Positions 16,601 through 44,140 of a stretch of 44,680 bases of DNA are shown here, one piece after another. The position numbers were made by a program, and so were the translations under genes. Within the stretch, counting starts at the first letter, position 1; the number at the start of each line of letters is the position of its first letter. The DNA lies in contig JAHLFA010000072.1 of the NCBI GenBank assembly GCA_018883985.1, forward strand, positions 1 to 44,680, written 5' to 3'. Source of the DNA: Candidatus Ruminococcus intestinipullorum. GTDB lineage: Bacteria > Bacillota > Clostridia > Lachnospirales > Lachnospiraceae. The notes beneath the pieces are model-generated. The model saw only the letters and a list, made by a program, of their open reading frames with translations, was not told the origin of the DNA and made no database searches.

Positions 16601-16625
16601 TTTGGCGCGTATAAAGGGAAAAATT

Positions 16626-16814
16626 ATGGAATACTTATCACTTAGACAAACGGCAGAAAAATGGGGACTTTCCATTAGAAGAGTACAAACATTGTGTAGT
16701 ACGGACAGAATACCTGGTACTACAAAGATTGGTTCATATTGGGCGATTCCGGTTGATGCGGAAAAACCAAAGGATGAAAGAATAAAGAGTGGTAAATACG
16801 TAAAAAGAGTATAA
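16626..16814 (+). CDS. Small helix-turn-helix DNA-binding protein (excisionase/MerR-like HTH)
   Basis: MEYLSLRQTAEKWGLSIRRVQTLCSTDRIPGTTKIGSYWAIP. Confidence 0.8.
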   Translation: MEYLSLRQTAEKWGLSIRRVQTLCSTDRIPGTTKIGSYWAIPVDAEKPKDERIKSGKYVKRV

Positions 16815-19979: not shown

Positions 19980-19980
19980 G

Positions 19981-22635
19981 ATGTCAATTGTAATCTATAC
20001 ATACCACGATCCATATAAAATAGATCAAGAACCATATTGGGATGAGATTAAAAATTGTCCTTACTTTTGTTCGGCACAGACATTAGTCAATGGTTTGCGA
20101 AGCCACTATAAGGGAAAATTTGATGGTGGACGTGTTTCAACTGTAAAAATTCTTACAGACTCTCTTTATGCTGATTGGGCAAGTCCTGCGTGGATTGTAA
20201 AGCAACATACTGATATTGACAATATAATTAATTCTGGTTTTTCAACGGATCTTTCAGAGTCAGAGCGAATCAATATCGGCAGAGCTTTTCTGTTTAACAG
20301 AGCTGATGTGTTTGCAAGCATTAGAGCAATGTTTGAATTAAATGTGGATCCAAGCGCAATATTAAAAGATAAACTTACAAAAGAGCAGAGATTCATTTGG
20401 GGTATATATCAAAAAATACTTGCTTCCGAAGTGAAAAAAGATTTCTATCTTGCTCAAAGTTTAGCAGAAGAAGAAATTGATGAAGGATTGCGTAGGGCCA
20501 TGACGGCAATACAAGAGGATTATGATTTTTCGGATGTCAATCTGGATACGATTGTTATTCATGGAGTACATCAGTTTAATCCAATTACGCTTCGGGCCAT
20601 TGATGAATTACAGAAATATAAAAATGTTATTCTGCTATTTAATTATCAAAAACAGTATAAGAACGTATATCAAACATGGTTTGATATATATTCCGCATTT
20701 GACTGCAAAATAATCGATTATGATCGAAATGAATTCTTAGCAACAGATTCATCAACGGTAAGCTATAGAGGAAATGTTTTGGCTGATCAGCTTGGAAAGC
20801 TTGTTAATGGACAAAGGAGAGCAATCACTGTAGACGAGCCGTATGAAGTAATCGAGTTTGATAACATGACAGAGTTTGCCGGCTATGTTGCAGATATTTT
20901 TGAGGAAGCAGAACGAAAGGATCCTCAAAAACCTATGCATCATATGAGAGAGCAGATTTATGCGGCAAATAGTTCTGCGAATGATATATTGAAAATTTAT
21001 TTTCCGGAACAATTTGGGGAACGCCAGTTTTTGAATTATCCAATAGGGCATTTTTTCCTTGCAATTGCAAATATGTGGGATCCGGAAAAAAATGAAATTT
21101 TCATATCAGATATAAATGATGTCAGAGAATGTCTTGGAGCAAATATTCTTTCAGAAGATGTACTGGGACAATTGGTATCAATTTTTGGAAGAATCCAGGC
21201 TTTGTTTGATGGGTGTGTGTCAATCAAACAAATGAGAAAAAGATTGAAATCGCTGAAAAAGAATATGAAATACATTACAGATTCATTAGAACAAGAATAT
21301 GTGAGTCATATATCTTATTACGCTGTTACAAGGAATGAAATAGAGAAGCTTAGTGGTGCATTAGAAGAATTGGAAGATATAGTATCTCATTTTTATGAAG
21401 ATTTTGAGAATACTACACACAATTTCCGAGAGTTTTACAGAAAATTGAAAAACTATTTGCAAAGCGATATTTTAGGAGATCGTGAGCTTTCAGAAGAGTT
21501 CGCAGATATTTTGAGAAGAGTTTTGTCAAGGTTAGAAGAAGTAGAGAGTATTGATGCATCGGCTTCCTTTGAATGCTTAAAATCTACGATGTCCATTTAT
21601 TTGCTTCAAGAATCAAAACCAGGGAGAAGTGCTAACTGGATTGTGCGTAATTTCGAACAGATTGACGGTGATATTCTGCGAAGCGGTCATGAAGATCCGA
21701 ATATTATCTATCACTTCGCTTGTCTTGAAGATGAGGATGTGGGCGCTGTAAAAAAAGCAGAATTTCCATGGCCGCTAAATGATGAATTTTTTGAAGTGGC
21801 CCAGAACCCGGTTGATTGGAAATATCAAGTTTATGTTAAGTGCTGTAATGAATACAAAAATTTTAAAAGGTATGCACTGATTTATGGATTGGAATTTAAT
21901 CGTGCCAAGTTCAAATTATCTTATGTGAAAAGAGACGGTGATAGAGAAAGAGAACCTTATTATCTTCTTAATATATTGGGAATCAAAAAGAAAAAGTATT
22001 CAAGCCATAAGGTATCAAAAAGACTTGAAAACACTTCACATATTGAAATAGAAAATGGAGCAACTGGTTCATTTGATGCATATGACTATTATCGTTATCG
22101 CATATGTAAATATAGATTTTTGATGGAGTCATTAGTTGAGAGTAATACAGTATATAAAGACAATTTTCTTCTGCTAAAATATCTTGAGGTGATGCTCGAA
22201 AATGCAATCAAGGAGGATATGCAAGGAAAGCCAATTAGTGAGGCAATCATAATTGATAAGTTGGATGAAAAATATGAAGAGCTAAAGAGATTTTTCCCAT
22301 TTGCTCAAAGTGTAAATCGAATGGATGTTATTAACAATATTCGAAATAGATTGGTGAGTGGGAAGGCAAAGAAGTTTTCAGTGTTATCTTCAGAAGAGCG
22401 TCGTTACATGATGATTCGAGAGTTATTTATCCATAAAAAACTAGAGAATTCGAAAAATGCTGGCGTGGATATAATGCAAGATAAGTTTCCGAATGTTAGC
22501 GCGGAACAGATAGCCGAGAAACTGAATCAGGAGATGCTTAAGGGAGTAGACTACATGGTTAATGTCGATGCATGGTGTCAATTCTGTGCAAATCGAGAAT
22601 TGTGTACTGCTTACTATAGCAAATCAAGAGATTGA
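19981..22635 (+). CDS. AddB/RecC-like protein with Cas4/AddB-type Fe-S cysteine box
   Basis: YYRYRICKYRFLMESLVE (first Cys) and C-terminal WCQFCANRELC (C-x2-C-x5-C). Starts immediately after the UvrD-like gene. No Walker A seen. Confidence 0.7.
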   Translation: MSIVIYTYHDPYKIDQEPYWDEIKNCPYFCSAQTLVNGLRSHYKGKFDGGRVSTVKILTDSLYADWASPAWIVKQHTDIDNIINSGFSTDLSESERINIGRAFLFNRADVFASIRAMFELNVDPSAILKDKLTKEQRFIWGIYQKILASEVKKDFYLAQSLAEEEIDEGLRRAMTAIQEDYDFSDVNLDTIVIHGVHQFNPITLRAIDELQKYKNVILLFNYQKQYKNVYQTWFDIYSAFDCKIIDYDRNEFLATDSSTVSYRGNVLADQLGKLVNGQRRAITVDEPYEVIEFDNMTEFAGYVADIFEEAERKDPQKPMHHMREQIYAANSSANDILKIYFPEQFGERQFLNYPIGHFFLAIANMWDPEKNEIFISDINDVRECLGANILSEDVLGQLVSIFGRIQALFDGCVSIKQMRKRLKSLKKNMKYITDSLEQEYVSHISYYAVTRNEIEKLSGALEELEDIVSHFYEDFENTTHNFREFYRKLKNYLQSDILGDRELSEEFADILRRVLSRLEEVESIDASASFECLKSTMSIYLLQESKPGRSANWIVRNFEQIDGDILRSGHEDPNIIYHFACLEDEDVGAVKKAEFPWPLNDEFFEVAQNPVDWKYQVYVKCCNEYKNFKRYALIYGLEFNRAKFKLSYVKRDGDREREPYYLLNILGIKKKKYSSHKVSKRLENTSHIEIENGATGSFDAYDYYRYRICKYRFLMESLVESNTVYKDNFLLLKYLEVMLENAIKEDMQGKPISEAIIIDKLDEKYEELKRFFPFAQSVNRMDVINNIRNRLVSGKAKKFSVLSSEERRYMMIRELFIHKKLENSKNAGVDIMQDKFPNVSAEQIAEKLNQEMLKGVDYMVNVDAWCQFCANRELCTAYYSKSRD

Positions 22636-22648
22636 TTGGAGAGATGTT

Positions 22649-25600
22649 ATGTTGGTAGAAAAAATGTATGTAAGATGTCCTGCCGACAAAGAGAGTATGA
22701 CAGACCCTCGTGTATTTGTGTGTGGACAGATTACAAAAGTGGACCAATTTAAGAAAACAGTTAAGGTGAGAATATATGATCCATTAAGTTATTTGATGTT
22801 TTTTGAAAATCTTCCAAAGGGAGAAATAGAAATTCCACAAAGCATGGCCCAGCGTTGTACATTCTTCCTGGGATCCAGTGTATTTGCCAAGAATCGTCGA
22901 TGTAAAGTTTTATCCTGTGTACGAGCAAAAGATCAGTTTTACTACTATTATTTGCAGGATGAAGAGAGTAAGGAGATATTCCGCCAATGTGAGAAAAATA
23001 TAGTTGCAGCATTTAACAACGGGAGAGTGGATCCTACAGAGCAATTAAAACGGTATGAATTTCAAAATCCATGTTGGTATTTAGGGCATTCAATTGTATC
23101 CAAAAGCATGAATGTCTTAGATAATTCTATTTATGGTTTTAAAGAATTGGCGGGTTCTAAAATATACTTATTACCTCATCAGGTGAATTCTATTATGAGA
23201 TGTTTGCAGGAAGAACCTTGCCGTTATATGCTTGCCGATGAAGTTGGAATGGGAAAAACAATAGAAGCTATTTCTGTTTTTAAAATATATATGAAAGACA
23301 GAAGTGATAAAAAAGCATTGATCATTGTTCCAGAGACTTTAAAGGAACAGTGGATAACAGAACTGTTTTTGAAATTTAACATTGAGCAAGGTGAGGATAG
23401 TAATCACAATTGCGTGGTTGTGAAAACCATAAGTGAAATTAGTCTGCTTGATCAAAACACTAGTTGGGATTTTGTAATCATAGATGAGGTACATAGATAT
23501 CTTTCAGATTCCGGACAATATGAGTCTATTCATAATATTAGTAGGAGAACAAGAAATATTTTGTTATTGAGTGCAACACCAGTTCAACAAAGAAGAGCTG
23601 AATATTTGGGTTTGCTCAGATTGCTTTTGCCAAGCAAATATGATTCGTTTACGGAGGAAAAGTTTGGTGAATTAATAGACAAACAGAGCCATATTATACA
23701 GAAAACAGCACTTATCCTCGATGATTTAAGTGATTTTGAGGAGACAATAGACGATGCAATTGATGAGGAAGAAGACCCTCATGAATCTGAAGATTGTCAG
23801 GATTTGTTCGAAGAGATTCAAGAGGGATTAGAAGAAATCTGTGATGATTTAGATGATAGCAGATTGAATGAGTTGTTTGAGGCGATTTCATTTGAAGAAA
23901 ATGATCTGGGTGTATATGCGATTAAAGTTATGATTTCGTATATATGCAGTAATTATCAGATTGAAAGTAATATTATCAGAAATAGAAGAAAGTTATTAGA
24001 AGTAACTGAAGATGATGAAAGATTACTGCCAATTCGAGAATTAGAAACACAGACATATGAATTAGATAGTGATAAAAATGTATACGAGGCATTGACATAT
24101 GAATTATTAAGTAATTGGATTTTAGAGATTACTAAAGAAAATAGTCAATGTGTTGAGTCGATTATTAGGCCGTTATTAAGTGCATTTTTTAGTTCTCCAT
24201 GGGCTTTTGAAGATGCTATCAAGGAAGTGGAGCAAAAAGGCGTTCATGTAAGTGAAGGGATTAAGATTAATGCCGAAAGATGGAAAAGTTTTGAGCAAAA
24301 TATAATAAATGAAATCTCTAAAGTGATTGATGATCCTGATTACTATTTGGACTTCTATTCAACCAGATTACTTACGGTTATTAATGCAGTTTATGAAGAA
24401 CTGTTCGATCAAAAAATTGTATTGTTTACTAATTACAAGGGAACATTTGATGCTTATCGAAAGATATTAGAAGGCATTTTTTCGAAGGGAGAGGTTAGTT
24501 TCTTTGGAGCTGGTATGTCAAAGGACGAGATCGAACTAAATGCTTATAGATTTCAAAATGATAGAAGTTGCAGGATAATGCTTTGTGATTACACTGGTGG
24601 AGAAGGAAGGAATTTTCAGTGTGCGGATTATATCGTCCACATCGATCTTCCTTGGGACGCCAATATGATTGAGCAGCGAATTGGTCGATTGGACCGATTA
24701 GAAAGAGATCCTTCGAGACCAATAGTTCATTCTGTTGTGATTTATACATTGGAAACATTTGAAGAAGCATTGTTTAATTTCTGGAACGAAGGACTAAAGA
24801 TATTTACTCAATCTTTAAGCGGAATGGAAATCATCATGAAGGAAATCAATAGTGAAATAATTTCTGCAATTCAGAATGATTTCAAACATGGCCTTTTTGA
24901 AAAAATTCCTGGAATTATAGAGTCGGCTGATGAAATGCGTGCAACCGTTAGAAAAGAGCAAAATTTCGATGCGGCAGGATTTATTTATCGACCAATGTAC
25001 AACGAATTGAAACGCTTGATAGATTACTACTCTCAAAACGAAAATGAGCTGTTTGCGAATACGATGACAAATTGGGCAAGTTTAGCAGGATTTCATGGTA
25101 CAACAAGTAAGCTAGGAATAATTACGTATTCCGCAAGTTCGTTTGTTCCTAAATCAGCGATAAATGCTTTACTTATTCCACCTAGATGGAATGAATATTT
25201 GAATTCAGCACAGAACGCTTTTACTACTCGTGTTCAAGGAGCATATGATCGTTCGAAAGCAATCAAAAATGTTGCTGGTTCAATAAGAGGTACATTTATT
25301 AGAAAAAAAGCTATTGAAAATGATTACCTTCATTTCTTTGCACCAGGGGATGCCGTTTTTGATTGTATTGTTGATAATGCGATTCATTCTTGTAAAGGGC
25401 AAGCTAGTGCTTTCGCGTTTCAGTCCAATCTAGATTGGACAGGATTAGTGTTTACGTGGTCACTGGCACCAAACATTGATTATCTTATGGATAATGGTGT
25501 TTCTGTCTATGCGTTAAGCCCGTATAGAAATTACTTGATGTCTGAGCAAGTTGTTGTTGCTGTTTCGATAAAGAACGATGATGAAATCGACGACAATCAA

Positions 25601-26017
25601 GTTGTTCGAGAGTATATGCGCCTTGTGGAGTCTGGATTCAAGCCCCAAAATGTTGTGCATCTTGGGAAACGTGGAGGTGGACATGGATTCTTAAAAGATG
25701 AAATAGATGGAATGAGCAATATTGATTGGTTTAAGCAAGAGTATTCCGAAGAAAATTGGATTGATTTAGTAGACAACGCAAAAAAAGAAGCTTCAGAGAA
25801 GGCAATGGATGTTTTTGTACGAAGATCCAATATACGTGGAGCTAGAGAAGAAATGGAAAGGACACTTTCAGAAAGAGCTGCGAATGCGGATTATTTTGGT
25901 ATCTCGCAAGAAGGGCTTGAAGAATTAAAAGAGACTCAGGCTATTATTCTAAATGCAATAAAGAGACCAAGATTAGTTTTAGAATCAGCTGCGTTTGTAT
26001 GGATGGGTAAAAACTGA
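22649..26017 (+). CDS. SNF2-family helicase/ATPase (DpdE-like)
   Basis: ADEVGMGKTIEA, FVIIDEVHRYL, LLLSATPVQQRRAEYLGLLRLLLP, GEGRNFQCADYIVHIDLPWDANMIEQRIGRLDR. Likely start is the ATG at 22649 with ttggagag upstream. Confidence 0.85.
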   Translation: MLVEKMYVRCPADKESMTDPRVFVCGQITKVDQFKKTVKVRIYDPLSYLMFFENLPKGEIEIPQSMAQRCTFFLGSSVFAKNRRCKVLSCVRAKDQFYYYYLQDEESKEIFRQCEKNIVAAFNNGRVDPTEQLKRYEFQNPCWYLGHSIVSKSMNVLDNSIYGFKELAGSKIYLLPHQVNSIMRCLQEEPCRYMLADEVGMGKTIEAISVFKIYMKDRSDKKALIIVPETLKEQWITELFLKFNIEQGEDSNHNCVVVKTISEISLLDQNTSWDFVIIDEVHRYLSDSGQYESIHNISRRTRNILLLSATPVQQRRAEYLGLLRLLLPSKYDSFTEEKFGELIDKQSHIIQKTALILDDLSDFEETIDDAIDEEEDPHESEDCQDLFEEIQEGLEEICDDLDDSRLNELFEAISFEENDLGVYAIKVMISYICSNYQIESNIIRNRRKLLEVTEDDERLLPIRELETQTYELDSDKNVYEALTYELLSNWILEITKENSQCVESIIRPLLSAFFSSPWAFEDAIKEVEQKGVHVSEGIKINAERWKSFEQNIINEISKVIDDPDYYLDFYSTRLLTVINAVYEELFDQKIVLFTNYKGTFDAYRKILEGIFSKGEVSFFGAGMSKDEIELNAYRFQNDRSCRIMLCDYTGGEGRNFQCADYIVHIDLPWDANMIEQRIGRLDRLERDPSRPIVHSVVIYTLETFEEALFNFWNEGLKIFTQSLSGMEIIMKEINSEIISAIQNDFKHGLFEKIPGIIESADEMRATVRKEQNFDAAGFIYRPMYNELKRLIDYYSQNENELFANTMTNWASLAGFHGTTSKLGIITYSASSFVPKSAINALLIPPRWNEYLNSAQNAFTTRVQGAYDRSKAIKNVAGSIRGTFIRKKAIENDYLHFFAPGDAVFDCIVDNAIHSCKGQASAFAFQSNLDWTGLVFTWSLAPNIDYLMDNGVSVYALSPYRNYLMSEQVVVAVSIKNDDEIDDNQVVREYMRLVESGFKPQNVVHLGKRGGGHGFLKDEIDGMSNIDWFKQEYSEENWIDLVDNAKKEASEKAMDVFVRRSNIRGAREEMERTLSERAANADYFGISQEGLEELKETQAIILNAIKRPRLVLESAAFVWMGKN

Positions 26018-26019
26018 GA

Positions 26020-28497
26020 ATGAATAAAGAAACAATTATTGATCGAATGCAATCATATTTTTCTGGAGAGAATCAGAAGCCTGAGTTTGATACCAGTATA
26101 GAAATGGATGCATTGCAATCATTTTATGTTAGAACTGCAAAACGACTCGTGATAGCGAATGAATTGCAAAAGAAAGATACAATCTATAGGGATGATTTTT
26201 TTATTGCACTTCGAGACTATTTGTTAGTGTTTGAAACATCACTTTCTCTTAGTAATGTTATTATTCCTGACGATAATCCGTATGCAATAAAAAAGGATGT
26301 GGCTAATGGAAAATACTACGCTACGTTTCAATTTCCGGAGGGAGTTTCTTCAGAATTGGCAGAATCTGCGTTTATGAGGAGTTATTCTTCAGAAGATGTG
26401 AAAAAGGATTATAATTTGACTACAGATTCATTGATATATTCGCTTACCGGATTTTCTGCTTTTAAATCTATGTCTCAAAAACTAGCAGTTTACGGAGCGT
26501 TGAGAACACCTGATGGTTATACGACATTGGTAGCGTTACCGACTGGTGGTGGAAAAAGTCTTATTACACAGATGTTGGGATATCAGACAGAAGGATTAAC
26601 AATTGTAGTTGTTCCAACTGTTTCTTTAGCAGATGATCAGATTCTTGCTGCGAAACAGATTATTAAAAGCAAAACTGTGGATCAAGAGGTGTTTTCTTAT
26701 AAAAGCGGTGTACAAGTTACCCCAATCATAAATGCTATTCAAAATAGAACTGCACGACTACTGTTCATTTCACCAGAAGCGTTGATGAATAATCAAGCTT
26801 TTGAAAGTGTTTTAAAGGTGGCAAATAAGCAGCATTACATAAAAAATATTGTAATTGATGAAGCTCATATTGTGGTTGATTGGGGAGGATCATTCAGAGT
26901 TGATTATCAATGCTTAGAGGCGTGGAGAAAAAAATTATTGCTAAATAATCCAGGTATTAGAACGATTTTATTATCTGCCACATTTGAAAGTAAAAGCATT
27001 GAAGTACTGAAAAAGTTATTTTCTGATGGAAATAAATGGATTGAAGTACGATGCGATGAATTGCGGCATGAGCCAAGATATATCATATTGAAGGAAAAAG
27101 GATATAAAAATAAAGATAAAAAGACTATAGAATTAGTCAGAAAATTACCACATCCAATGATCATTTATGTTGCTCGGCCTGATGATGCAGAAAGAGTGAA
27201 AAAACTGTTATGTGACAATGGAATCAGAAATACTCGAACATATACAGGTTTAACAAATAATGATATTAGGGAGCAATTGCTAAAAGAATGGAAAGCGAAT
27301 AAGTTTGAAATAATGATAGCAACTTCTGCTTTTGGGGTTGGTGTAGATAAGCCGGATGTTAGAACAGTATTACATCTTTATATTCCACAAAATCCTAATG
27401 CGTATTACCAGGAGCTTGGACGTGGTGGACGAGATCAATTACCATGCTTAAGTGTAATGTGTACATATGTAGATGATCTTAAGTTTGCATTTCAGAGAAT
27501 TAGTAAACGTGTTATGACTACAGAGAAAATAATTGGACGTTGGGATAGCATGTTTAATAATAAGTTGTCAATTAGAGATGGTGCTATTATTCATATAAAT
27601 ACTGCTATAAAACCTAATTATCATACAAAAGATGAATGGGATGATAGACCGGTATCGGATGCCGATATGAATTGGAACATTTATGTGTTACTTCTTTTAA
27701 GGCGTTATGGTTTGATTGAAATCATTGATATTACTAATGACAATGGTATTTATATTTTTTCAATTAGCATCGAAAATGATCTTTTGTTAAATAAAGGTGA
27801 TGAACAAACACTCTTGATTGAAGAAATACGTTCGCAGGAATGGGCATACTATAATGACGCATATCTGACGATGGAAAGAGCGATAACTAGAAGTGAGGGT
27901 GAATGTTGGTCTGAAATGTTTTTTGATACTTATGACAAAGTGTATGAGTATTGTGCAGGCTGTAATGCACACTTAAGAAAAAACAGTGGAGACACTCTTG
28001 CATTTCCACTAAAAAAGAGCATAAAGGCCCCTATTTCTGTAGTTGAAATGGATCAGAAAAAGATTTTTGAATCACAGGATGAGTTGATTGTTCTTGCAGG
28101 TTCAGAGGAAAAGAAGAAAGTAATTAAATTTTTAGAAAGTCAAAGATTATCTACACTTGTTGCATCTAACAGTCAGCTTCAAGAGATTGACTTTTATGGA
28201 AGTGTTTCTGATGGAAAAACGTTATTTGTTGTAAATTCAGGTGACTTAAAAGAGTTGTTAAAAAAAGGCAACTATTACTTTGTATCTGGAATGGTTGCTA
28301 TTCTTTATCCAGATGATGAAAGTGAGGTTTTTGAGATATATAAATTAGTCACAAAATATTTGCAACACAAATTAGGAATACATATTGTACATATTCTTTC
28401 TGAAAACTTTTTCCTGCCAGTGATTGGGAAAAGTATTGCAGATGTAATTGAGGGAAGAGTTGTGTTGGCAAATGATATATGTGCTGAGATGAGGTGA
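26020..28497 (+). CDS. RecQ-like DEAH helicase (DpdF-like)
   Basis: PTGGGKSLITQMLGYQ, VIDEAHIVVDWGGSFRVDY, LLSATF, ATSAFGVGVDKPDVRTVLHLYIPQNPNAYYQELGRGGRD. Confidence 0.85.
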   Translation: MNKETIIDRMQSYFSGENQKPEFDTSIEMDALQSFYVRTAKRLVIANELQKKDTIYRDDFFIALRDYLLVFETSLSLSNVIIPDDNPYAIKKDVANGKYYATFQFPEGVSSELAESAFMRSYSSEDVKKDYNLTTDSLIYSLTGFSAFKSMSQKLAVYGALRTPDGYTTLVALPTGGGKSLITQMLGYQTEGLTIVVVPTVSLADDQILAAKQIIKSKTVDQEVFSYKSGVQVTPIINAIQNRTARLLFISPEALMNNQAFESVLKVANKQHYIKNIVIDEAHIVVDWGGSFRVDYQCLEAWRKKLLLNNPGIRTILLSATFESKSIEVLKKLFSDGNKWIEVRCDELRHEPRYIILKEKGYKNKDKKTIELVRKLPHPMIIYVARPDDAERVKKLLCDNGIRNTRTYTGLTNNDIREQLLKEWKANKFEIMIATSAFGVGVDKPDVRTVLHLYIPQNPNAYYQELGRGGRDQLPCLSVMCTYVDDLKFAFQRISKRVMTTEKIIGRWDSMFNNKLSIRDGAIIHINTAIKPNYHTKDEWDDRPVSDADMNWNIYVLLLLRRYGLIEIIDITNDNGIYIFSISIENDLLLNKGDEQTLLIEEIRSQEWAYYNDAYLTMERAITRSEGECWSEMFFDTYDKVYEYCAGCNAHLRKNSGDTLAFPLKKSIKAPISVVEMDQKKIFESQDELIVLAGSEEKKKVIKFLESQRLSTLVASNSQLQEIDFYGSVSDGKTLFVVNSGDLKELLKKGNYYFVSGMVAILYPDDESEVFEIYKLVTKYLQHKLGIHIVHILSENFFLPVIGKSIADVIEGRVVLANDICAEMR

Positions 28498-28501
28498 AAA
28501 A

Positions 28502-29281
28502 ATGTTTCAAAATAAGATGGTGACACCAGCTATTCCGGAGCGTGTATACACACTGTGTAAAATAGTGGAGAAGAAGGCAATGTCTACCTCAGAAGTTAAA
28601 GAGAAGATGGAGCCGTCTTACTTGAACCAAAAATCAAGCTACTATAATGATTATAGAAATGCTGCGGAAGAATTACAATTAATTACCGTTACAGACAACG
28701 TTTTATCTGTAGCGGTTGATACGTCTGTATTGAAAAACATGGATACTATGCGTTCCTATATCAATGGACAGCTAAATCAGTTTCGTGAAGGGCAGTTTTA
28801 TAAAGTGACGAAGGCATATTTTGATATGGGAGAAGAAATATTGCACGGTGAACAGAATGTGGCAAATATGGCTTCGCTTATGACGCTAAAAACTGGTATT
28901 TCGGTAGACAGTATGGCAATGCGTGCGTGGAGATTTTGGGCATCATATCTTGGTTTCGGATATCTTCAGGATATGTTTGTTATTCCTAATGCGGACACAT
29001 TTTTACAGGATATTATTTCTGAAGCCGAATTTGAAAAGAATAAGAGATATTCTATCGCGGAATTTTTAGAGAAACTTCGCCCGCATTCAGATATTATTAT
29101 TGATTCTTCAAACGGTACTAAAAAGTTTAGCTTTGGAGTATCTAATGGGCTAAGAACACTGCAGGATGCAGGTGCTATTCGAATGGAATACATTTTAGAC
29201 CAGGAAGATACATGGAATTTGTATCACGTAGATGCACTTAGTGCAAATGAAACAGTTACAAATATTACAGTGTTGAAGTAG
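28502..29281 (+). CDS. DpdG-like 259-aa protein (winged-helix-like N-terminus)
   Basis: Size and position between the RecQ-like helicase and the large ATPase. Residues 1-60 resemble a wHTH. Family assignment is by synteny only. Confidence 0.45.
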   Translation: MFQNKMVTPAIPERVYTLCKIVEKKAMSTSEVKEKMEPSYLNQKSSYYNDYRNAAEELQLITVTDNVLSVAVDTSVLKNMDTMRSYINGQLNQFREGQFYKVTKAYFDMGEEILHGEQNVANMASLMTLKTGISVDSMAMRAWRFWASYLGFGYLQDMFVIPNADTFLQDIISEAEFEKNKRYSIAEFLEKLRPHSDIIIDSSNGTKKFSFGVSNGLRTLQDAGAIRMEYILDQEDTWNLYHVDALSANETVTNITVLK

Positions 29282-29291
29282 GGGGGGAAAT

Positions 29292-32200
29292 ATGGATATA
29301 GCAATAGCAAAAGATAGGTTGGCATCAGTTGTCAAACCAGATTCCATTACAGCTTCTCAAGGCGATTTTTTAGCAACACATGTTGCGATAAAGAAATTGG
29401 TGATGCTCAATAAATTTGAATTTGTTCCCACTTCTGAAAAGTATACGTCTGAAGAAGATATTTACAAAAAATTCATTGTAAACCCTTCCAATAAACATCA
29501 GTTTATTGTTGTTTATGGACAGAGCGGAACGGGAAAGTCGCACTTGATTCGATGGTTTGAGGCACGTTATAAAGCGGATCGCCCAGATGATGAAGTGGTT
29601 CTATTTATTCGACGAAGCGATAATACGTTAAAGGGAACGATTCGTCAGCTGCTGGACAAACCAGAGGTTCAGGATATCGGAAATAAAGAGATTATTAAGC
29701 GTCTAGCAAACGCTTCTGCGGCTGTTCCGGAAGATAAACTGAAAGATATGATTTATCATAATTTCATTATTGAGATTAATAATGATGATGACGAATACGA
29801 GATTCAGCTGAATAATATAAAGCGAAAAAGATTGGTTGCATTTTTTAATAATGAGACGATTCATGATTACATGATGAGATCAGGAGGTCCGATTGAAAGG
29901 ATCTATTCTAAGGTTGCAGAAAATTCGTTTGTGTATTTGGATACTATTGCTCAGTTTAAGCCAGAGGACTTTATAGTGTCTGTGGATTTGTATGATGATA
30001 TGCAACAAGCTGGAGCTGATCCGAAAGCGGATAAAATGGCCAGAGTTCTTATGGCGAATGATGCAATGGAGGATGCTAAAAAATTTAGTGATTACCTTAA
30101 TCAATTTGTCGAGATTGTTATTCAACGATGTGCTGGCATTGAGCCAGGAGACTTTGAACAAGTATTCATGGATATTCGAAAAGAACTCTACCGTATTGGG
30201 AAAAATTTGACTCTTTTTATTGAAGATGTTACTTCCTTTACTGGGGTAGATAATGCGCTTTTGAATGCGTTGATGGAGGAACATAATGACCGTGATATTT
30301 GTCGAATTTCATCTGTAGTAGGAGGAACAAATGCGTATATTAATGATTGTTTTCGACAGAATCATCGCGATCGTGTAACGCAATATGTATATATTCCAGA
30401 TGATGTTTTCGATGAAAGTGGATTGTATGAGTTCGTAGGCAGATACATAAATGCAATGTCATTACCTGTTGATAGAATATCAGAGTGGGTAAACAATAAG
30501 GCTCTTCCGGGCGAATATCCAGTTCATGAGGTAGCTCAAGGCAATGATTGGGAATATATCGATATTCTACATGGAAAAAAATTGTGTTTATATCCGTTTA
30601 CAAAAAATAGTATTAAATACTTGTATAAAAATGAATTAACAAAAGGACATCAAACACCAAGATATATTATCAGAGATATCATTGAGCCGGTTGTAAGTGA
30701 CTTGCTTTATAATGAGACGAATTTCCCTAGTAAAAAATATGCTTTAGTGAACATTAATACAACGCTTAATTTTATGGTACATAATCAGATTCAGGATGAG
30801 GAACTTGCGGATCGTGTGTTCTGTTTTATGAGTATTTGGGGAAATAATGAAGCAAAAGAATTCACTTATGACTCGATAACATATATAGCGGGATTACCTA
30901 CATATATATATGAAGAATTTGGAATGCCAGTAGTTAATTTACAGAAGGCAGATTCTGGTAGTGGGATAAAACCAACGCCCAATATAGAGCCGGAAACTCC
31001 TCCACAAGGTGCTGGTCCTTCAGGTGAGCCGAGTAATATACCTGCTATACCACCAGAAAAACAGAAAAAGCTTGATGATGCTAACGTTAAGTTAACTCAG
31101 TGGGCTAATGGTATGCCTATTAACCTATCTACTACAGGTGGCGCAGAAGGTACAATTCGTACTGCCCGAGAAGATATGGGAGATTTTCTTATATCAGCAA
31201 TCAATTGGCAAGCCGAAGGCGTATCTATGGATAATGTTGCAAAAGTAAAAGCGTCAATAAGTGGAAAGGCCTCTAAATATAAGCTGGTTGCTTTGGAAAA
31301 TCAAACAAAGGGAAATGGCTATTATGTATTACCCGCAAACTGGGATTCATTAAATGTTATTAATGCATTTATTAGATGGAGAGAATTTGGTAATCAAAGC
31401 TGGGAATATGTAGGATCTGATTTTGATGCTTATGTAATTACTTCTTGGACTGCAAGAATTAAGAAACAGATTGTGAAGGCAGTAACTCAGTATGATGATA
31501 AAAATGATACAAAGTATATTGAGGCTGCAGTGACCGCAGAAATGTATCGATTAATCTTGAATGGAGAGTATCGAGAAAAATCACTTGGTAATTTAACTGC
31601 TGATTATATTTTTTGTAATCATCTGGCAAAGAATAAGAATACATGGCATTCAAATGAGTGGAACGCATTGTTAGCTGTTATGCACCAAAGAGATGCAGAT
31701 ATTATCAATAGAGAAACTGTGCGTCAGTATTTTAATCTCTTGCAAGGAAGTGCAGCTGGTAATGTTGTAGTATTAGATGCAATTAACCTTTCAAAAACAA
31801 TTAGGAAAGCTAAGACTAATAAATTGCAGATTCCAGAAGAGGATTTTCAGCTAGATGATAAAGTTAAATTACGAAAAGACACATATGCATTTCTAAATGA
31901 CATTGTCAGTAGAATAGAAAATGTAGCAAATGCTGAAATTGATATTGCGAAGAAGGCAATTCAAATAGTGTATGATTGTTTCGATGATGATGAAGTAGAA
32001 GAAGAGGATATCGATGCATTATTGATAAAAGTAAATCAGTTCTATAAAGAAATAGATGAAACGCAAATTAATATTAAGGCGGTTGTTGTGGATGGAGTAA
32101 AAAAAGCCATCAAACAAATTGCAAAGGCAATTGGAGATATCACTAGAGTGCTGGATGAGGATGATCCGCTCACAATTCTCATGGCATTTTCAGGGGATCC

Positions 32201-32393
32201 AGTAGGGGTTATTCAGCCGCTGATAGAATTGATTAAGCAAGTGGAAAAAGATATTTCAGAAGCAAACAAACAAATTAGTAGTAGAAAGAGCTTGCTGGGC
32301 AATAGTGAGACTGATGAAGAGAGCGGAGCTCACTATAAAACTGAATTATCAGTAATTGCAAGTGATATGGATGTGATAGGAGTGTTACGGTGA
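29292..32393 (+). CDS. Large P-loop ATPase (DpdH-like)
   Basis: VVYGQSGTGKSHLIRWFEARY Walker A, LTLFIEDVTSFTG Walker B-like, 1033 aa. Confidence 0.7.
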   Translation: MDIAIAKDRLASVVKPDSITASQGDFLATHVAIKKLVMLNKFEFVPTSEKYTSEEDIYKKFIVNPSNKHQFIVVYGQSGTGKSHLIRWFEARYKADRPDDEVVLFIRRSDNTLKGTIRQLLDKPEVQDIGNKEIIKRLANASAAVPEDKLKDMIYHNFIIEINNDDDEYEIQLNNIKRKRLVAFFNNETIHDYMMRSGGPIERIYSKVAENSFVYLDTIAQFKPEDFIVSVDLYDDMQQAGADPKADKMARVLMANDAMEDAKKFSDYLNQFVEIVIQRCAGIEPGDFEQVFMDIRKELYRIGKNLTLFIEDVTSFTGVDNALLNALMEEHNDRDICRISSVVGGTNAYINDCFRQNHRDRVTQYVYIPDDVFDESGLYEFVGRYINAMSLPVDRISEWVNNKALPGEYPVHEVAQGNDWEYIDILHGKKLCLYPFTKNSIKYLYKNELTKGHQTPRYIIRDIIEPVVSDLLYNETNFPSKKYALVNINTTLNFMVHNQIQDEELADRVFCFMSIWGNNEAKEFTYDSITYIAGLPTYIYEEFGMPVVNLQKADSGSGIKPTPNIEPETPPQGAGPSGEPSNIPAIPPEKQKKLDDANVKLTQWANGMPINLSTTGGAEGTIRTAREDMGDFLISAINWQAEGVSMDNVAKVKASISGKASKYKLVALENQTKGNGYYVLPANWDSLNVINAFIRWREFGNQSWEYVGSDFDAYVITSWTARIKKQIVKAVTQYDDKNDTKYIEAAVTAEMYRLILNGEYREKSLGNLTADYIFCNHLAKNKNTWHSNEWNALLAVMHQRDADIINRETVRQYFNLLQGSAAGNVVVLDAINLSKTIRKAKTNKLQIPEEDFQLDDKVKLRKDTYAFLNDIVSRIENVANAEIDIAKKAIQIVYDCFDDDEVEEEDIDALLIKVNQFYKEIDETQINIKAVVVDGVKKAIKQIAKAIGDITRVLDEDDPLTILMAFSGDPVGVIQPLIELIKQVEKDISEANKQISSRKSLLGNSETDEESGAHYKTELSVIASDMDVIGVLR

Positions 32394-33067
32394 TGGCAAT
32401 GATGATAGATATTCTGGACAAAAGTATAAAGGATATGAAGGATCTGCGTCAGCGTGAAGAAAGAAGAGATAATAAAGCCGCTCAGGAAGCACTAGATCAA
32501 CGATTTAGTGTACTGACTAGTCAAATTCATTCATTGATGTTGGCACTGCAGTATACAAAGGAAAAAATGCAGTTTCAATTAAATGATCAGATTCTCATAG
32601 AATTAGAAAGTCTGTTGCAAGAGAGTAAAGGCATTGTTAAATCTGGTTTTGCTGAAAAGGATCCTATTGCACAGGTAGAAAATGCTCATAAAACTGTACA
32701 GCAGAATATCAAGAAAGATTGGGCAAAGCATTATTCATCTATGACCAATTCAACCAAAAGTACGTTGCAGGTTATCTCAGGGATTGATACGGAAAAAGTG
32801 GCTAAATGTCTAGATGGGATTGCCAAGGGAGCTTCTTGGACAACCAGCATTGGGGATTTTAAAGCAATGAATCAGAGCCTTGCAGAAGCAAAAGATTTGA
32901 TTGATGGATTAGGATTAGATCAACAAATAATTGCCTTCTTGCAGAAGATGAATAATGGAAAAGCAACAGTTACGGATTTAGATGAAAATGTATTGCGATG
33001 GTTAAGGGATGAATCATTGGATAGACGAGTAAAACTTTCTTTTGTTGGAGGAAGTAGAAGGGTTTAG
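32390..33067 (+). CDS. Coiled-coil-rich protein of unknown function, translationally coupled to the ATPase gene
   Basis: Starts 4 nt before the preceding stop. Strongly helical composition. Confidence 0.6.
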   Translation: MMAMMIDILDKSIKDMKDLRQREERRDNKAAQEALDQRFSVLTSQIHSLMLALQYTKEKMQFQLNDQILIELESLLQESKGIVKSGFAEKDPIAQVENAHKTVQQNIKKDWAKHYSSMTNSTKSTLQVISGIDTEKVAKCLDGIAKGASWTTSIGDFKAMNQSLAEAKDLIDGLGLDQQIIAFLQKMNNGKATVTDLDENVLRWLRDESLDRRVKLSFVGGSRRV

Positions 33068-33103
33068 TTTTGCAGGCTTTTTTAGTAAAAAAGAAGCATA
33101 AGA

Positions 33104-33157
33104 TTGACTATTAACAAAAATAAAGATATACTTAAGTAGCTACTTAAGTATATCTTT
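33104..33157 (+). promoter_or_regulatory. dnd operon promoter overlapping a 36-bp perfect palindrome
   Basis: TTGACT (33104-33109), 17 nt, TATACT (33127-33132). AAAGATATACTTAAGTAG/CTACTTAAGTATATCTTT at 33122-33157 is a perfect palindrome. Confidence 0.75.
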
Positions 33158-33178
33158 ATTTGGTTCACGGAGATAAAA

Positions 33179-34246
33179 ATGGATTATGTATATAAGTTCC
33201 CTGTTGTTAGAGGGATTCAAGCAAAAAGAGAATATTTTATTGCAATGGTTCCTTTGAAAATGTTAGCACGTCTATTTCCGATTGATGACGAGTACGTTCT
33301 TCCGGAATATAGAGCACAAAGGAAGCTGAATGAAGCTAGGATACCGGTAATAAGCAAATATATATTGGACAACAGAGATTCTTATGTGTTCTCTGCGTTA
33401 GCAGCATCGATCGATGGGGACTTTTGCTTTAAAGCAGATAATTCTAATCAAGATGCAGGTACTTTGGAAGTGTCAATGGATGCGAAATTTTTAATTAACG
33501 ATGGTCAGCATAGAAAGTCTTCAATTTTAGAGGCAATGAGAGAAGATCCTTCATTAGGGGATGAGACCATATCAATTGTTTTTTTTGCAGACAAAGGGTT
33601 GGCACGTAGTCAACAGATTTTTACAGATTTAAATAAAAATGCTGTAAAAACGTCTAATTCTATTTCGGAATTGTATGATTCGCGTGACGAAATGGCTGTG
33701 ATTACAAGAAATATAATATGGAAAATAGAATTTTTAAATACTTATACTGATAAAGAAAAAGATATCTTAGGCAAGTTTTCTTCGAAATTATTTACTTTAA
33801 ATACTATTTATTCTGCAAACAAGATTGTTGTAGGCGGGAAAATAGAGGATAAAACTGAGGATTTTCTCACAACATACTGGGAAATGGTTGTTGCTAATAT
33901 GCTTCCTTGGCAGGAGTTATCGAACAAAGAAATTACTAAGGTGGATTTAAGAGAACAGTACATTGCAACACAAAATATAGTGATTCAAGCACTGGGAAGA
34001 TTGGGGAATTATTTCTATTCTAATCCAGACTTGGATATGCAGAAATATCTAGAAATATTGAAAGAGATTAATTGGAATCGTAGTGCAAGTATATGGCATC
34101 TAAGAGCTATTAGCGAGAACGGAAGAATAATTACAAATAAAAGAGCAGCACTATTAATTTCAAATGTAATAAAAAAAGTGATGAAACTACCGCTGTCTAA
34201 AGAAGAACAAATGGCTGAAGAAAAGTTGAAAAAAATAGTAGGCTAA
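33179..34246 (+). CDS. dndB: DndB-like DGQHR-domain protein
   Basis: FLINDGQHRKSSILEAM motif and FTDLNKNAVKTS; first gene of the dnd cassette. Confidence 0.9.
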   Translation: MDYVYKFPVVRGIQAKREYFIAMVPLKMLARLFPIDDEYVLPEYRAQRKLNEARIPVISKYILDNRDSYVFSALAASIDGDFCFKADNSNQDAGTLEVSMDAKFLINDGQHRKSSILEAMREDPSLGDETISIVFFADKGLARSQQIFTDLNKNAVKTSNSISELYDSRDEMAVITRNIIWKIEFLNTYTDKEKDILGKFSSKLFTLNTIYSANKIVVGGKIEDKTEDFLTTYWEMVVANMLPWQELSNKEITKVDLREQYIATQNIVIQALGRLGNYFYSNPDLDMQKYLEILKEINWNRSASIWHLRAISENGRIITNKRAALLISNVIKKVMKLPLSKEEQMAEEKLKKIVG

Positions 34247-39249: not shown

Positions 39250-40443
39250 ATGAGTCCTAAAATGAATATGGGAATTGTTTATGAAAACAATTTAGATACG
39301 GATAAGTTTGCCAGAATGTTTAATAATAAGGCTCAGAGCTACAAATTTTATTGGTTCGAGGCAATTTTGAATTTGACTATGGAGACGGATGAGGATTTGT
39401 CATTTGAAGATGTAATTGATGAAATGATATGTGAAGCATGGCACACTGTTACTCATTATCATTTGCGTCTTGGCCCTACAGTTAATGGAAATGCAGAAAA
39501 CTTTTTAGAGCATGCCATAAATACCTTAAATCATTTTTCAAAGGATGTTTTACAGAATCCGTCGAAAGAAGAACTGAAGGCTGCAATAAGAGACTGTAAA
39601 AATGAACTTAAGAAAGATAAAACTCGTTTGACAGACTATGTGCCGTACAAATTACTTTATCCATTTTTTGATACAGAAGGAATGGAGGAAGGTCTTTCTT
39701 ATATAAAGAATGATAAGCATAGACGATTGATTGCTTACATGGAAAAACTAACGGGGAATGAAAATATCTTATACACAATAATTGATGGGGTAGGGCTACA
39801 GAAAAGAATACGCTTGAATGCGTATTGGCGTAAGCTCTTAATAAAAAACTATTCAGTTATTCGAAGCTGGGTGCAATATAATAAAGCTCAATTTCTTCAA
39901 GACCGAAATCCAGGTGTACCAGGAATTATATATAAAATATGTCCGGAAAACGAGGATCAAAGAAAACTAGATCAAGCAAGAGCCTTGTGGAGAGCAACAG
40001 TGGATATTACGAAAAGACCAATCCGAGAAATATATACAGGTAGAGAAATTGGATTGGATGTGTTATCCATTGATCATTTTGTTCCGCGTTCATATATATC
40101 AAATGATGAATTGTGGAATTTGACACCTATGAGTAAATCGTTGAATTCTAGTAAAAACAATAGATTGCCATCGTGGGATGAATATTTTGAGCCGTTTGCA
40201 CATTATCAATATTATTTGTATAGTCTTGTTTTTCCGGAAGATGAATCTAAAAAATCGGCGTTCTTGATTGATAAATTTGAAAAGTGTCGCAAGAACAATG
40301 TAAATGCAATATGGGCATCAGAAGCATTGTATATACCAGGAAATACAAAAACTCAATTTGTTAATATTTTGAGTCATAACTTGAAGCCAATATATGAATC
40401 TGCACAGATGCAAGGATATGATATCTGGAATATGAAGGTGTAA
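39250..40443 (+). CDS. HNH endonuclease-like protein
   Basis: SIDHFVPRSYISNDELWNLTPMSKSLNSSKNNRLP (DH...N...N HNH pattern). Confidence 0.75.
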   Translation: MSPKMNMGIVYENNLDTDKFARMFNNKAQSYKFYWFEAILNLTMETDEDLSFEDVIDEMICEAWHTVTHYHLRLGPTVNGNAENFLEHAINTLNHFSKDVLQNPSKEELKAAIRDCKNELKKDKTRLTDYVPYKLLYPFFDTEGMEEGLSYIKNDKHRRLIAYMEKLTGNENILYTIIDGVGLQKRIRLNAYWRKLLIKNYSVIRSWVQYNKAQFLQDRNPGVPGIIYKICPENEDQRKLDQARALWRATVDITKRPIREIYTGREIGLDVLSIDHFVPRSYISNDELWNLTPMSKSLNSSKNNRLPSWDEYFEPFAHYQYYLYSLVFPEDESKKSAFLIDKFEKCRKNNVNAIWASEALYIPGNTKTQFVNILSHNLKPIYESAQMQGYDIWNMKV

Positions 40444-40445
40444 AC

Positions 40446-41054
40446 ATGAATAATGATTCTATTGAATACTATGAAAAAAATGCAGACGAGTTTGTGCTTT
40501 TGACAGTAAATGCAGATGTAAGTAGTCTTTATAAAGAGTTTGAAGGGCATATTAAAAGAGGATGCCGCATTCTGGATCTGGGTTGTGGAAGCGGGAGAGA
40601 CAGTAAGTATTTTGCAGAACAAGGATATGATGTCGTTGCAGTTGATCCATCACCAGCAATGTGCGAGAAGACAAGAACGTTATCCGGCGTTGTTACATAC
40701 ATTCAGCGAGCTGAAGAATTGGAGTTTGAAAATGAATTTGATGCAGTGTGGGCATGTGCTTCATTGCTGCATGTTTCAAGAGAAAATCAGAGGAAAGCTC
40801 TTATCAAAATTTGTAAATCGCTTAAACCAGAAGGGGTTCTTTATTGTTCTTGGAAATATGGAACACAAGATCGAGAGGAGAAGGGGCGTCATTTTACTGA
40901 CTTAACCGAACGTGAGTTACAAGCTCTTTTGTCTGATATCTTGAATTATCAATTAATAAAAATGTGGCGAACAGATGACGCTCGACCAGGAAATAAACAA
41001 CAGTGGTTGAATGTACTGTTGAGAAAGGATTGTAATGTCATTAGCAAGAATTAA
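40446..41054 (+). CDS. Class I SAM-dependent methyltransferase
   Basis: RILDLGCGSGRDSKYFAEQGYDVVAVDPSPAM motif I. Confidence 0.9.
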   Translation: MNNDSIEYYEKNADEFVLLTVNADVSSLYKEFEGHIKRGCRILDLGCGSGRDSKYFAEQGYDVVAVDPSPAMCEKTRTLSGVVTYIQRAEELEFENEFDAVWACASLLHVSRENQRKALIKICKSLKPEGVLYCSWKYGTQDREEKGRHFTDLTERELQALLSDILNYQLIKMWRTDDARPGNKQQWLNVLLRKDCNVISKN

Positions 41055-41964
41055 ACAAGTATTAACACATTTAGAAGAGGCAAAAGATGTAGTGTTTCAG
41101 ATTGTTCAAATGAACACGTCAAGGAACGGTGATACCGCTTATATAGTAAGGCCTATTACATTTGAACCGATAGATAAAATGAAAAGTTTTTTACTTGAAA
41201 TCCATGATAAATATTTGGATAGTAAAAAAGGATTGGACAAAATGTTTTCGGCATGTATTGCGTATGATGGAAGCGCTGATGGAAAAAATGTATATTATTT
41301 AGAAACAGACAATGCATTGATTCAAAAAGAATATGATTTGCTATTGGAGGCTTTGGCGGCACCAGCAGTGGAACAAGACCCGCTTTTAATGAAAGCGATT
41401 GCTTCAATGATTACGTTTAGTATTGAAGACGATGGGGAGATACTTCCTGTAAAATTGATTTCTATGCAAAATCCAATCACAACTTTAAAACATAAATTCT
41501 TTTGTAATAAAGGAAGGTTTGAAGAGTTTTCTGAAAAAGTTTTGAATTTGCGAACATCTATAGATGTTATTATCGTCGGAGATAAAGTATATTTTCTTAC
41601 AATGGCAGGTGAGAAGCTTTTCAATATGGAAAGAGCATACAAAAAACTTTGTGCAGATTATGTTGTTGCCATTAAAGATAGTGGAATTATTGTAAATGTG
41701 GATGGGTTTACTGATGTAGCACTTCATGGCCATAACCCTAGAAGATTTGTGGCTTACAATAAGAAGAATTTGGAACAGCTCCAAAATAGTAGTACTAGAG
41801 AGAGAATTGCAAAGCTGTTTTCAGTAAAATTAACGGATGGGAAATTGGATGCGACTGATCCTAAGGATGCAGAAAGAATTGTAAAGATTCTATGCAATAA
41901 AGGGATGACAGATCCGTTTAGAGAAGAAGCAATGGAAGTATCTGGTGCGAGAAAATGGAGCTGA
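41035..41964 (+). CDS. KwaB-like (DUF4868) protein
   Basis: VYFLTMAGEKLFNMERAYKKL and overall 309-aa DUF4868-type architecture recognised by eye; paired with a membrane protein gene. Confidence 0.7.
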   Translation: MSLARIKQVLTHLEEAKDVVFQIVQMNTSRNGDTAYIVRPITFEPIDKMKSFLLEIHDKYLDSKKGLDKMFSACIAYDGSADGKNVYYLETDNALIQKEYDLLLEALAAPAVEQDPLLMKAIASMITFSIEDDGEILPVKLISMQNPITTLKHKFFCNKGRFEEFSEKVLNLRTSIDVIIVGDKVYFLTMAGEKLFNMERAYKKLCADYVVAIKDSGIIVNVDGFTDVALHGHNPRRFVAYNKKNLEQLQNSSTRERIAKLFSVKLTDGKLDATDPKDAERIVKILCNKGMTDPFREEAMEVSGARKWS

Positions 41965-41977
41965 GTTAGGAGTGTAA

Positions 41978-42529
41978 ATGTCTTTCATATTTTCGTGTAC
42001 AATGTTTTTCCTTTCATTTACACCACTTTGGCTTTCAATAGTTTTCATTGATGCAGTAAGTATTTGGACTAATCAATACTGTATTTGGACTGAAATTATA
42101 AGTATATGCTGTATTGTCGTGGGGTTTTTTATTAGTGGTATTATGTTGCATCATTATTTGCAACATGGTTTAGTAAATGGAAATAGAAAGTATACAGTGT
42201 TAAAGGCAAACGAGGAAAAGACAATTTCTGTAGAATTTATTTTGTCTTATGTAATGCCTTTGTTTGCGTTTGATTTCAAGAATTGGCAGCAAACAATACT
42301 GTTTTTACATATTTTTTTGATATTAGGGTGGTTAAGCGTAAAACATAATCATTTTAGCAATAATGTTGTATTAGAAGCATTAGGATATCGTGTGTTCCAC
42401 TGCGTTCTAGACAGTGAAGACCGTAAGCAACTAGACGTAAATGTAATTACTAAAGATAACATGGTATTGTCTCTTCAGGAAGAAGTGACAATAGAATTTG
42501 TAAATAATGACTTTGCTATAACTAGATAG
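41978..42529 (+). CDS. Multi-TM membrane protein, candidate KwaA-like partner
   Basis: About four hydrophobic segments in 183 aa, 13 nt after the KwaB-like gene. Confidence 0.5.
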   Translation: MSFIFSCTMFFLSFTPLWLSIVFIDAVSIWTNQYCIWTEIISICCIVVGFFISGIMLHHYLQHGLVNGNRKYTVLKANEEKTISVEFILSYVMPLFAFDFKNWQQTILFLHIFLILGWLSVKHNHFSNNVVLEALGYRVFHCVLDSEDRKQLDVNVITKDNMVLSLQEEVTIEFVNNDFAITR

Positions 42530-42565
42530 TTATATTAGAAAATGTTCAATTATAGGTATAAAAAT

Positions 42566-44140
42566 ATGAGAGTATTAATGCTTGGCAATAGTTTTACTTT
42601 TGCAAACAACATGCCAGAAACCCTGGCCAACTTAATAGATGGCGAAGTGGTCCAGCATACCCGCGGTGGAGCACGTCTGGCCGAGCAGTTGAATCCTGAC
42701 ACCAAGATGGGAGGAATGACACAGGCAGCGCTGCAGAATGAAAAGTGGGATTATGTGATTCTTCAGGAGATGAGCAACGGCCCGATCACTTCCAGGGAAA
42801 GCTTCCTGAATAACACGGCACTGTTGTGTGAGCAGATTCGTGCTAATGGTGCAGTTCCGGTTTTGTATGCTACTTGGGCCTACAAAAGGGGAGGCAAGCA
42901 GTTGGAATCTTTTGGTATGGATTATGATGAAATGTATCAGAAGATGTATGATGCTTATCATGAGGCTGCCAATCAGAACGAAGCATTGATTGCGGATATA
43001 GGCAAGCGCTTCTATGAGGAAGCTGATAAGCAGGATATCTTTGCTGAGGATGGCTGCCATCCAAATGAGCTTGGTTCCAGGCTTGCAGCGCAGGTGATTG
43101 CTGATGTTATCTTAGCTGATCAGGCAACCAAAACAGAAATAGTGATTGAACCAAAGGCAGAGGACAACGATACAAGACTTCGAATCCTGTATCTTTATCA
43201 GATGCTTCTGACCCAGACCGATGAGGATCATACCCTGTCTACAAAGCAGATCACTGACCGTATGATGGAGCAGCACAATATTCTTGTGCATAGAACCACC
43301 GTGCCAAAGGATATTGATTTGCTTCGTGCAGCTGGTTTTGAAATTATTGGAGAGCGTAAGCGTGCCTGGGAATACTACCTGGCAGACCGCAAGTTCTCTG
43401 TGCCGGAGTTAAAGCTCTTGATCGATGCGGTACAGTCTTCAAAGTTCATTACAGAAAAGAAGAGTGAGAGTCTGATTGAAAAACTGATCTCTTTGACCAG
43501 CGAGACCAACGCAGATAAGTTAAAGAGATCTGTGCATATCACTGGTCGTGTGAAGTCAGAGAATGAAAAGGGCTATTACATAGTGGATGCCATCAATGAG
43601 GCTATCAATGCCGGCGTGAAGATTTCCTTCTATTATTTTGAACTCAATGGTAAGAAGAAGGAAGTGCTCAGGAACGATGGGAAACCATATACAGTCAGTC
43701 CATTTGATCTGATCTGGGATGGCGACTATTATTATCTGACCGGTTACTGTGATGAGAGGGAGGCTGTTCGCACCTATCGAGTAGACCGCATCAAGAAGCA
43801 ACCTGAGTTGCTGAAGGAGAAGGCTGTTAAGAAGCCAAAGGGCTATGATGTATCCAAATATACAACAGAAGTCTTCCGAATGTTCTCTACTGATGAAGCA
43901 GTTGACGTGACCTTGCTCTGTGACAACCGCTGTATGAAGTCTGTGGTAGATAAGTTCGGTATGAAGATCAAGACTCGCAGTGTTGGGGAGGAGCAGTTCC
44001 GGATAACGGTTAAGGTCTGTGCAGGTCCTACATTTTATCGCTGGGTATTTGGAGCCGGTGGGAAAATCGTGATCGAGAGTCCAATTGAAACACGTAATGA
44101 ATATAGAGAAATGCTTCAAAAGGCACTTAATCAACTATAG
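42566..44140 (+). CDS. SGNH-hydrolase domain fused to WYL-domain regulator
   Basis: N-term MRVLMLGNSFTFANNMPETL...DYVILQEMS...DGCHPNELGSRLAA (SGNH). C-term wHTH TLSTKQITDRM...HRTTVPKDIDLLRAAGF and SPFDLIWDGDYYYLTGY (WYL). Confidence 0.8.
   Translation: MRVLMLGNSFTFANNMPETLANLIDGEVVQHTRGGARLAEQLNPDTKMGGMTQAALQNEKWDYVILQEMSNGPITSRESFLNNTALLCEQIRANGAVPVLYATWAYKRGGKQLESFGMDYDEMYQKMYDAYHEAANQNEALIADIGKRFYEEADKQDIFAEDGCHPNELGSRLAAQVIADVILADQATKTEIVIEPKAEDNDTRLRILYLYQMLLTQTDEDHTLSTKQITDRMMEQHNILVHRTTVPKDIDLLRAAGFEIIGERKRAWEYYLADRKFSVPELKLLIDAVQSSKFITEKKSESLIEKLISLTSETNADKLKRSVHITGRVKSENEKGYYIVDAINEAINAGVKISFYYFELNGKKKEVLRNDGKPYTVSPFDLIWDGDYYYLTGYCDEREAVRTYRVDRIKKQPELLKEKAVKKPKGYDVSKYTTEVFRMFSTDEAVDVTLLCDNRCMKSVVDKFGMKIKTRSVGEEQFRITVKVCAGPTFYRWVFGAGGKIVIESPIETRNEYREMLQKALNQL

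Follow-up and report, generated by a model that had tools for sequence, protein, structure and literature searches.

How might a DNA modification operon be controlled on its own when a restriction module lies just upstream of it in the same orientation? The question is raised by a 44,680-nt stretch of Candidatus Ruminococcus intestinipullorum DNA (contig JAHLFA010000072.1; hereafter, the window), in which a Dpd-like restriction module (16860-33067) sits directly 5′ of a dnd phosphorothioation operon, in place of DndFGH or Pbe. The upstream genes encode DpdE-, DpdF- and DpdH-like proteins and a UvrD/NERD protein, and the downstream order is dndB, dndC, dndD, dndE, a dndA/sspA-like gene, and genes for an HNH protein, a methyltransferase, KwaB/KwaA-like proteins and a WYL protein. 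A first-pass annotation of this sequence had placed the boundary between a restriction-like and a modification unit at the gap before dndB. This division holds because Dpd relatives (DpdE, DpdF, DpdH) lie upstream and dnd genes (dndB-dndC-dndD-dndE-dndA-like) downstream. The gap, described there as the only sizeable one, spans 111 bp (33068-33178) and is indeed alone between 16860 and 42529, where all others measure 16 bp or less. Two further features of the window were recorded in passing. The genes after the dndA-like gene (39250-44140: HNH protein, methyltransferase, KwaB/KwaA-like) include those of the Kiwa type and end in an ORF that fuses SGNH/GDSL-like and WYL parts. On the minus strand, two ORFs at 15465-16260 resemble mobilisation genes, the second possibly the cut-off N-terminus of a relaxase; together with a small excisionase-like ORF at 16602-16814, they may mark a mobile-element boundary (all judged by eye).

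The gap before dndB contains a perfect, loop-free palindrome of 44 bp (33118-33161, AAATAAAGATATACTTAAGTAG/CTACTTAAGTATATCTTTATTT), of which the 36-bp perfect repeat reported earlier (33122-33157) is the inner part. With an arm of 22 bp, it surpasses every other in the window, where the runner-up zero-loop palindrome has an arm of 9 bp, and its length is far above chance: across 200 simulated windows with the same dinucleotide transitions, the maximum arm was 11 bp. Its inner part comprises two copies of TACTTAAGTA, each palindromic by itself, with centers 12 bp apart, and in the window copy two 9-nt outer arms are situated beyond the TATA flanks of this core. The annotated TTGACT-N17-TATACT promoter is present, with its -10 element inside the left arm. 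The 21 bp said to separate the repeat from dndB apply to the 36-bp version; the full palindrome ends 17 bp before the ATG. The features of this region are as follows.

32390-33067, plus strand: 225-aa gene, the last of the Dpd-like restriction module (no family match; homologue in the same place in 20/38 loci, the window being counted via locus L002)
33104-33109, plus strand: -35 element TTGACT (from sequence; TTGAC is kept in relatives)
33118-33161, no strand: the 44-bp palindrome in full (sequence, simulation, conservation)
33118-33126, plus strand: left outer arm AAATAAAGA, 9 nt, pairing with the right outer arm (covariation: variable sequence, pairing kept)
33127-33132, plus strand: -10 element TATACT in the left arm, 17 bp from the -35 element (from sequence)
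33129-33138, no strand: left subsite TACTTAAGTA, proposed DndB site overlapping the -10 element (sequence; conserved word, its pair found only at dndB in 397 family genomes)
33139, plus strand: predicted transcription start, a G at the dyad (placed by its spacing to the -10 element)
33141-33150, no strand: right subsite TACTTAAGTA, proposed DndB site, centered 12 bp from the left one (conserved word)
33153-33161, plus strand: right outer arm TCTTTATTT, 9 nt, T-rich, carrying the T-run in relatives (covariation; the window T-run is weak and interrupted)
33179-34246, plus strand: dndB, encoding the proposed repressor acting on the palindrome (PADLOC DndB, E = 3.6e-128; Pfam PF14072, E = 3.3e-114)

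Searching the genome collection for dndB gave 40 loci, 37 of them at 61-99% identity. Conservation of the palindrome before dndB homologs, which had been proposed as a check, is borne out: a core of two TACTTAAGTA subsites with a 1- to 5-bp spacer precedes dndB in 36 of the 37 close Bacillota relatives, the exception being a metagenome contig (L034) that lacks the left arm. The core is also specific to dndB. Among 397 genomes of the family, 12 contain the exact core pair, one copy each and always immediately 5′ of dndB, and a stricter pattern searched among 399 genomes of the phylum is found in the window's own genome only. The reversed control pattern had no occurrence in the genome searches. 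dndB itself is present in 21 of the 397 family genomes, 18 of which are strong matches. Six of these strong-match genomes do not carry the exact pair; L055 and L062 have it with two mismatches, and L070, also a strong match, has it with a 12-bp spacer. The remaining three of the six (L054, L059 and L068) have a more distant DndB, preceded by no such palindrome. In viral contigs, the core occurs at 40 sites, none of them adjoining a dndB detectable by tblastn. Closely similar stretches around CACTATACTTAATACTTAAGTATATACTTAAGTATATCACTTTT occur in two viral contigs with no detectable dndB (L103, about 1164-1185; L114, about 12007-12028), perhaps as the operator of an unrelated regulator.

Subsite centers are usually 12-13 bp apart (11-13 bp in 36/38 loci, 15 bp in two), and in L116 and L070 they are 22 bp apart, the spacer of 12 bp being one helical turn beyond the commonest 2-3 bp. 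In L070, one of the subsites, 12 bp apart, is mismatched and dndB (about 1501-2544) has an internal TAG. The first spacer base is a G in 29/38 loci, and the inner 20 bases are sequence-fixed in nearly all. In L017 and L065, TATACT has moved to the palindrome center, N17 from a TTGACA (about 7941-7967 and 1448-1474, respectively); the outer TATA is lost there and both TACTTAAGTA words are kept. Both inner half-sites are altered symmetrically in L024 (TACTTACGTA-GAA-TACGTAAGTA), and partial ACGTA forms of the subsite are seen in L007, L012, L024 and L062.

We take the core to be, very probably, the DndB operator of this Bacillota clade, positioned over the -10 element and start point, because of its specificity, its conservation, its two-subsite architecture and its resemblance to a published operator. 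Its retention where the -10 element has moved (L017 and L065) and beneath three different upstream modules, and the one-turn-longer spacer of L116 and L070, favor this reading as well. In Salmonella enterica Cerro 87, DndB is a dimer that represses dndBCDE and was footprinted on TACGN10CGTA (He et al. 2015, PMC4507180), and its deletion raises dnd transcription about 15-fold (PMC4507180). Like the palindrome, the Salmonella operator has two short symmetric subsites in the dndB promoter with centers 12 bp apart. An E. coli locus has GTTACGTAAAATATCACGTAAC at its dndB. It differs in using TACG/CGTA subsites in two regions, whereas the window has TACTTAAGTA in a single composite palindrome; the literal consensus TACGN10CGTA is absent from the window element, where two copies of TACTTAAGTA are found instead. 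The same four lines of evidence make DndB a strongly supported predicted binder, as had been suggested alongside a helix-turn-helix (HTH) protein encoded near 16626. For the latter we found no support: the element tracks dndB while the upstream module varies. This candidate is a 70-aa ORF (16602-16814) far from the palindrome, and no inverted repeat lies upstream of the restriction operon. A DndB operator common to all clades was likewise rejected, as other DndB clades show other repeats or no clear palindrome. Before dndB we find GGAAGT/ACTTCC in L039-L041, L122, L133 and L134, TGTTTG/CAAACA in L126, L128 and L129, and TACGTACGTA in L115, L120 and L121. Neither the DndB sequence nor its AlphaFold model (mean pLDDT 81.6, pTM 0.56) had a significant match in the PDB, SspE being the sole thematically related weak one for the model; we therefore do not argue for DNA binding from structure.

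The outer arms behave differently from the fixed core: they vary in sequence yet remain able to pair. Across 38 distinct loci, outer positions 1-6 are complementary in 195 of 228 cells (86%), compared with 23-39% when one arm is shifted against the other in the same loci. Contiguous outer pairs sum to 221; permutation gave 57.5 on average and 98 at most. Position 3 alone is AT in 9 loci, GC in 9, TA in 9 and CG in 8. Pair states at positions 1-6 changed at least 6, 5, 12, 9, 5 and 4 times on a DndB tree (at least 41 in total), counts that are approximate given that the tree is a quick one with several open forks. Arms reach 26 bp in L010, and the outer stem is short or broken in L008, L019, L020 and L038. 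An operator alone, at which DndB would repress its own expression from a site covering the promoter while the complementary outer arms play no role in RNA, would account for the conservation and specificity of the core, but a protein site leaves unexplained why the outer arms change and yet stay complementary.

Such complementarity could in principle arise without function. Template switching during replication can copy one arm onto the other, and this established process of quasi-palindrome correction would yield covarying arms. As an explanation of the outer arms, we regard a neutral by-product of this kind as the least probable of the readings considered. The 40 other instances of the core, in viral contigs without a detectable dndB, are not near dndB and have outer arms of just 0-2 bp, with the long stem absent; the long stem is therefore a companion of dndB rather than of the core itself. 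Moreover, 548 kb of flanking loci contain just two further inverted repeats of comparable form, and template switching gives no one-sided T-run.

A T-run of this type is evident across the relatives. The T-run to the right of the core exceeds the A-run to its left in 27 loci, with the reverse in 3 (p = 2.6e-5), and T-runs at the element exceed those before other ORFs of the same loci (p = 4.5e-8), both p values being optimistic since related loci do not count as independent. This asymmetry is also left unexplained by an operator alone. The window copy has a weak, interrupted T-run (TCTTTATTTGG), which speaks for the operator-only reading, and a terminator scan calls the minus strand only there; with these points on both sides, we consider that reading unlikely.

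At the RNA level, the window leader is predicted to form a stable hairpin (-30.3 kcal/mol, z = -5.66). Read-through RNAs fold at -10 to -33.5 kcal/mol, and RNAs beginning at the operon's own start, in the spacer, at -0.3 to -7.9 kcal/mol. Rfam gave sub-threshold matches only, most of them to microRNA models to which any long A/U hairpin conforms. At outer positions 1-6, the cells that are not Watson-Crick pairs comprise 10 GT, 0 TG and 3 AC on the RNA-sense strand, a lean that is confounded by T-enrichment on the right side. These data also bear on whether the element acts as a DNA cruciform, in which the A/T-rich palindrome would extrude under negative supercoiling and switch the promoter, perhaps stabilized by DndB. 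The window palindrome is perfect and loop-free, and arm covariation would also be expected of a cruciform. However, a cruciform does not predict the one-sided T-run, the lean towards G-T on the RNA-sense strand counts against it (subject to the same confounding), and spacers range from 1 to 5 bp and once or twice reach 12 bp. We judge it highly improbable.

The upstream gene is co-directional in 37 of the 38 element loci, which are all those where it can be read, L021 starting too near a contig end; in the 36 loci with a measured gap, 20-82 bp separate its end from the core. Three families occupy this position: the 225-aa gene of the Dpd-like module (20 loci, the window included), DndH of DndFGH (10 loci), and a 177-aa gene (7 loci) that follows PbeA and PbeC in L026. 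The three restriction modules (Dpd-like, DndFGH and Pbe) are mutually unrelated, the upstream family switches at least 6 times on the DndB tree, and the core words persist beneath all three families. In the window, a transcript of the 225-aa gene would continue into the palindrome. We also compared DndB loci of other clades for which upstream neighbors are annotated: L115, L117, L126, L129, L132 and L134 have a divergent neighbor and no comparably long hairpin, and L131 has a co-directional neighbor and an arm of only 9 bp. The agreement between a long hairpin and a co-directional neighbor is thus loose, with clade as a confounder.

The covarying stem, the T-run and the co-directional upstream gene could all be accommodated if the element were only a terminator, or an mRNA 3′-end hairpin, of the upstream restriction operon that the dndB promoter merely overlaps. 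We find this very unlikely. A terminator needs no fixed sequence, and yet the inner 20 bases are held constant; furthermore, the core pair occurs, among the 397 family genomes, only at dndB and is built like the known DndB operator. The first-pass annotation had named a purely terminating role among what would overturn its proposal. Such an exclusive role does not stand, given the sequence conservation of the core. A terminator-like component nevertheless seems to be present besides, one that was invisible in the initial reading because relatives were needed to see it.

Together, these observations suggest that the palindrome probably unites operator, promoter and read-through terminator for the dnd modification operon. 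At the DNA level, DndB would bind the two TACTTAAGTA subsites over the -10 element and start point and thereby repress its own operon. At the RNA level, the upstream restriction transcript would hold both arms and form the long hairpin followed by a T-rich stretch, by which read-through would be stopped or weakened. The transcript of dndB itself would pass, as it could not form the hairpin because a start near the dyad leaves it the right arm only. Expression of the modification genes would in that case depend almost entirely on the DndB-controlled promoter, whatever restriction module lies upstream. This model builds on the dndB specificity, two-subsite core, covarying outer arms, T-run bias and co-directional upstream modules read from the sequences; DndB binding, the start point and termination are the steps that we infer, and termination at the window copy is the least certain of them because its own T-run is weak. 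Also weighing against the combined reading are the terminator call on the minus strand alone at the window copy, the A/T-rich stem, the short or broken outer stems of four loci, the loss of the left arm in L034, and the different or unclear sites of other DndB clades. We lean, by a little, towards the broader proposal that one palindrome serves as operator, promoter core and intrinsic terminator, passing its own transcripts and stopping those from upstream, and that covariation has kept it as a portable boundary below three unrelated restriction modules.

So far, DndB autoregulation is known mainly from Salmonella and Streptomyces. These findings would add a clade of gut and anaerobic Bacillota in which the site is defined, and suggest how modification and restriction stay separately controlled despite forming one co-directional gene array. 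They also raise the questions of whether one short DNA element can be both an operator and a one-way terminator, and whether loss of the hairpin would upset the balance between modification and restriction. Autoregulation by DndB via palindromic subsites is already known. What appears new is an outer sequence that varies freely but stays complementary and is followed by a T-run; in the open-access literature, we found no description of the TACTTAAGTA site, its conservation, the covarying terminator-like stem or such an operator-terminator.

Several known systems share parts of this arrangement. The long covarying stem and T-run are missing from the dndB loci of E. coli (L118) and Salmonella (L117). 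Streptomyces lividans, like the window, has an inverted repeat (R) at the -10 element of dndB; it is reported to regulate positively and is probably bound by something other than DndB (PMC6186775), in contrast to the autorepression site proposed here. Intrinsic (Rho-independent) terminators resemble the element of many relatives in having a hairpin followed by a T-run, but here the left arm holds the -10 element of the next operon, the core is fixed and resembles a protein site, and the stem is A/T-rich. A parallel in layout is EcoKI, where a separate terminator and promoter lie between the restriction gene and the modification genes (hsdR - terminator - promoter - hsdMS; reviewed in PMC12707154). 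As proposed for the dnd boundary, restriction and modification genes can be controlled separately because a stop and a promoter lie between them; in the dnd palindrome, unlike EcoKI, a single sequence would act as stop, promoter and operator.
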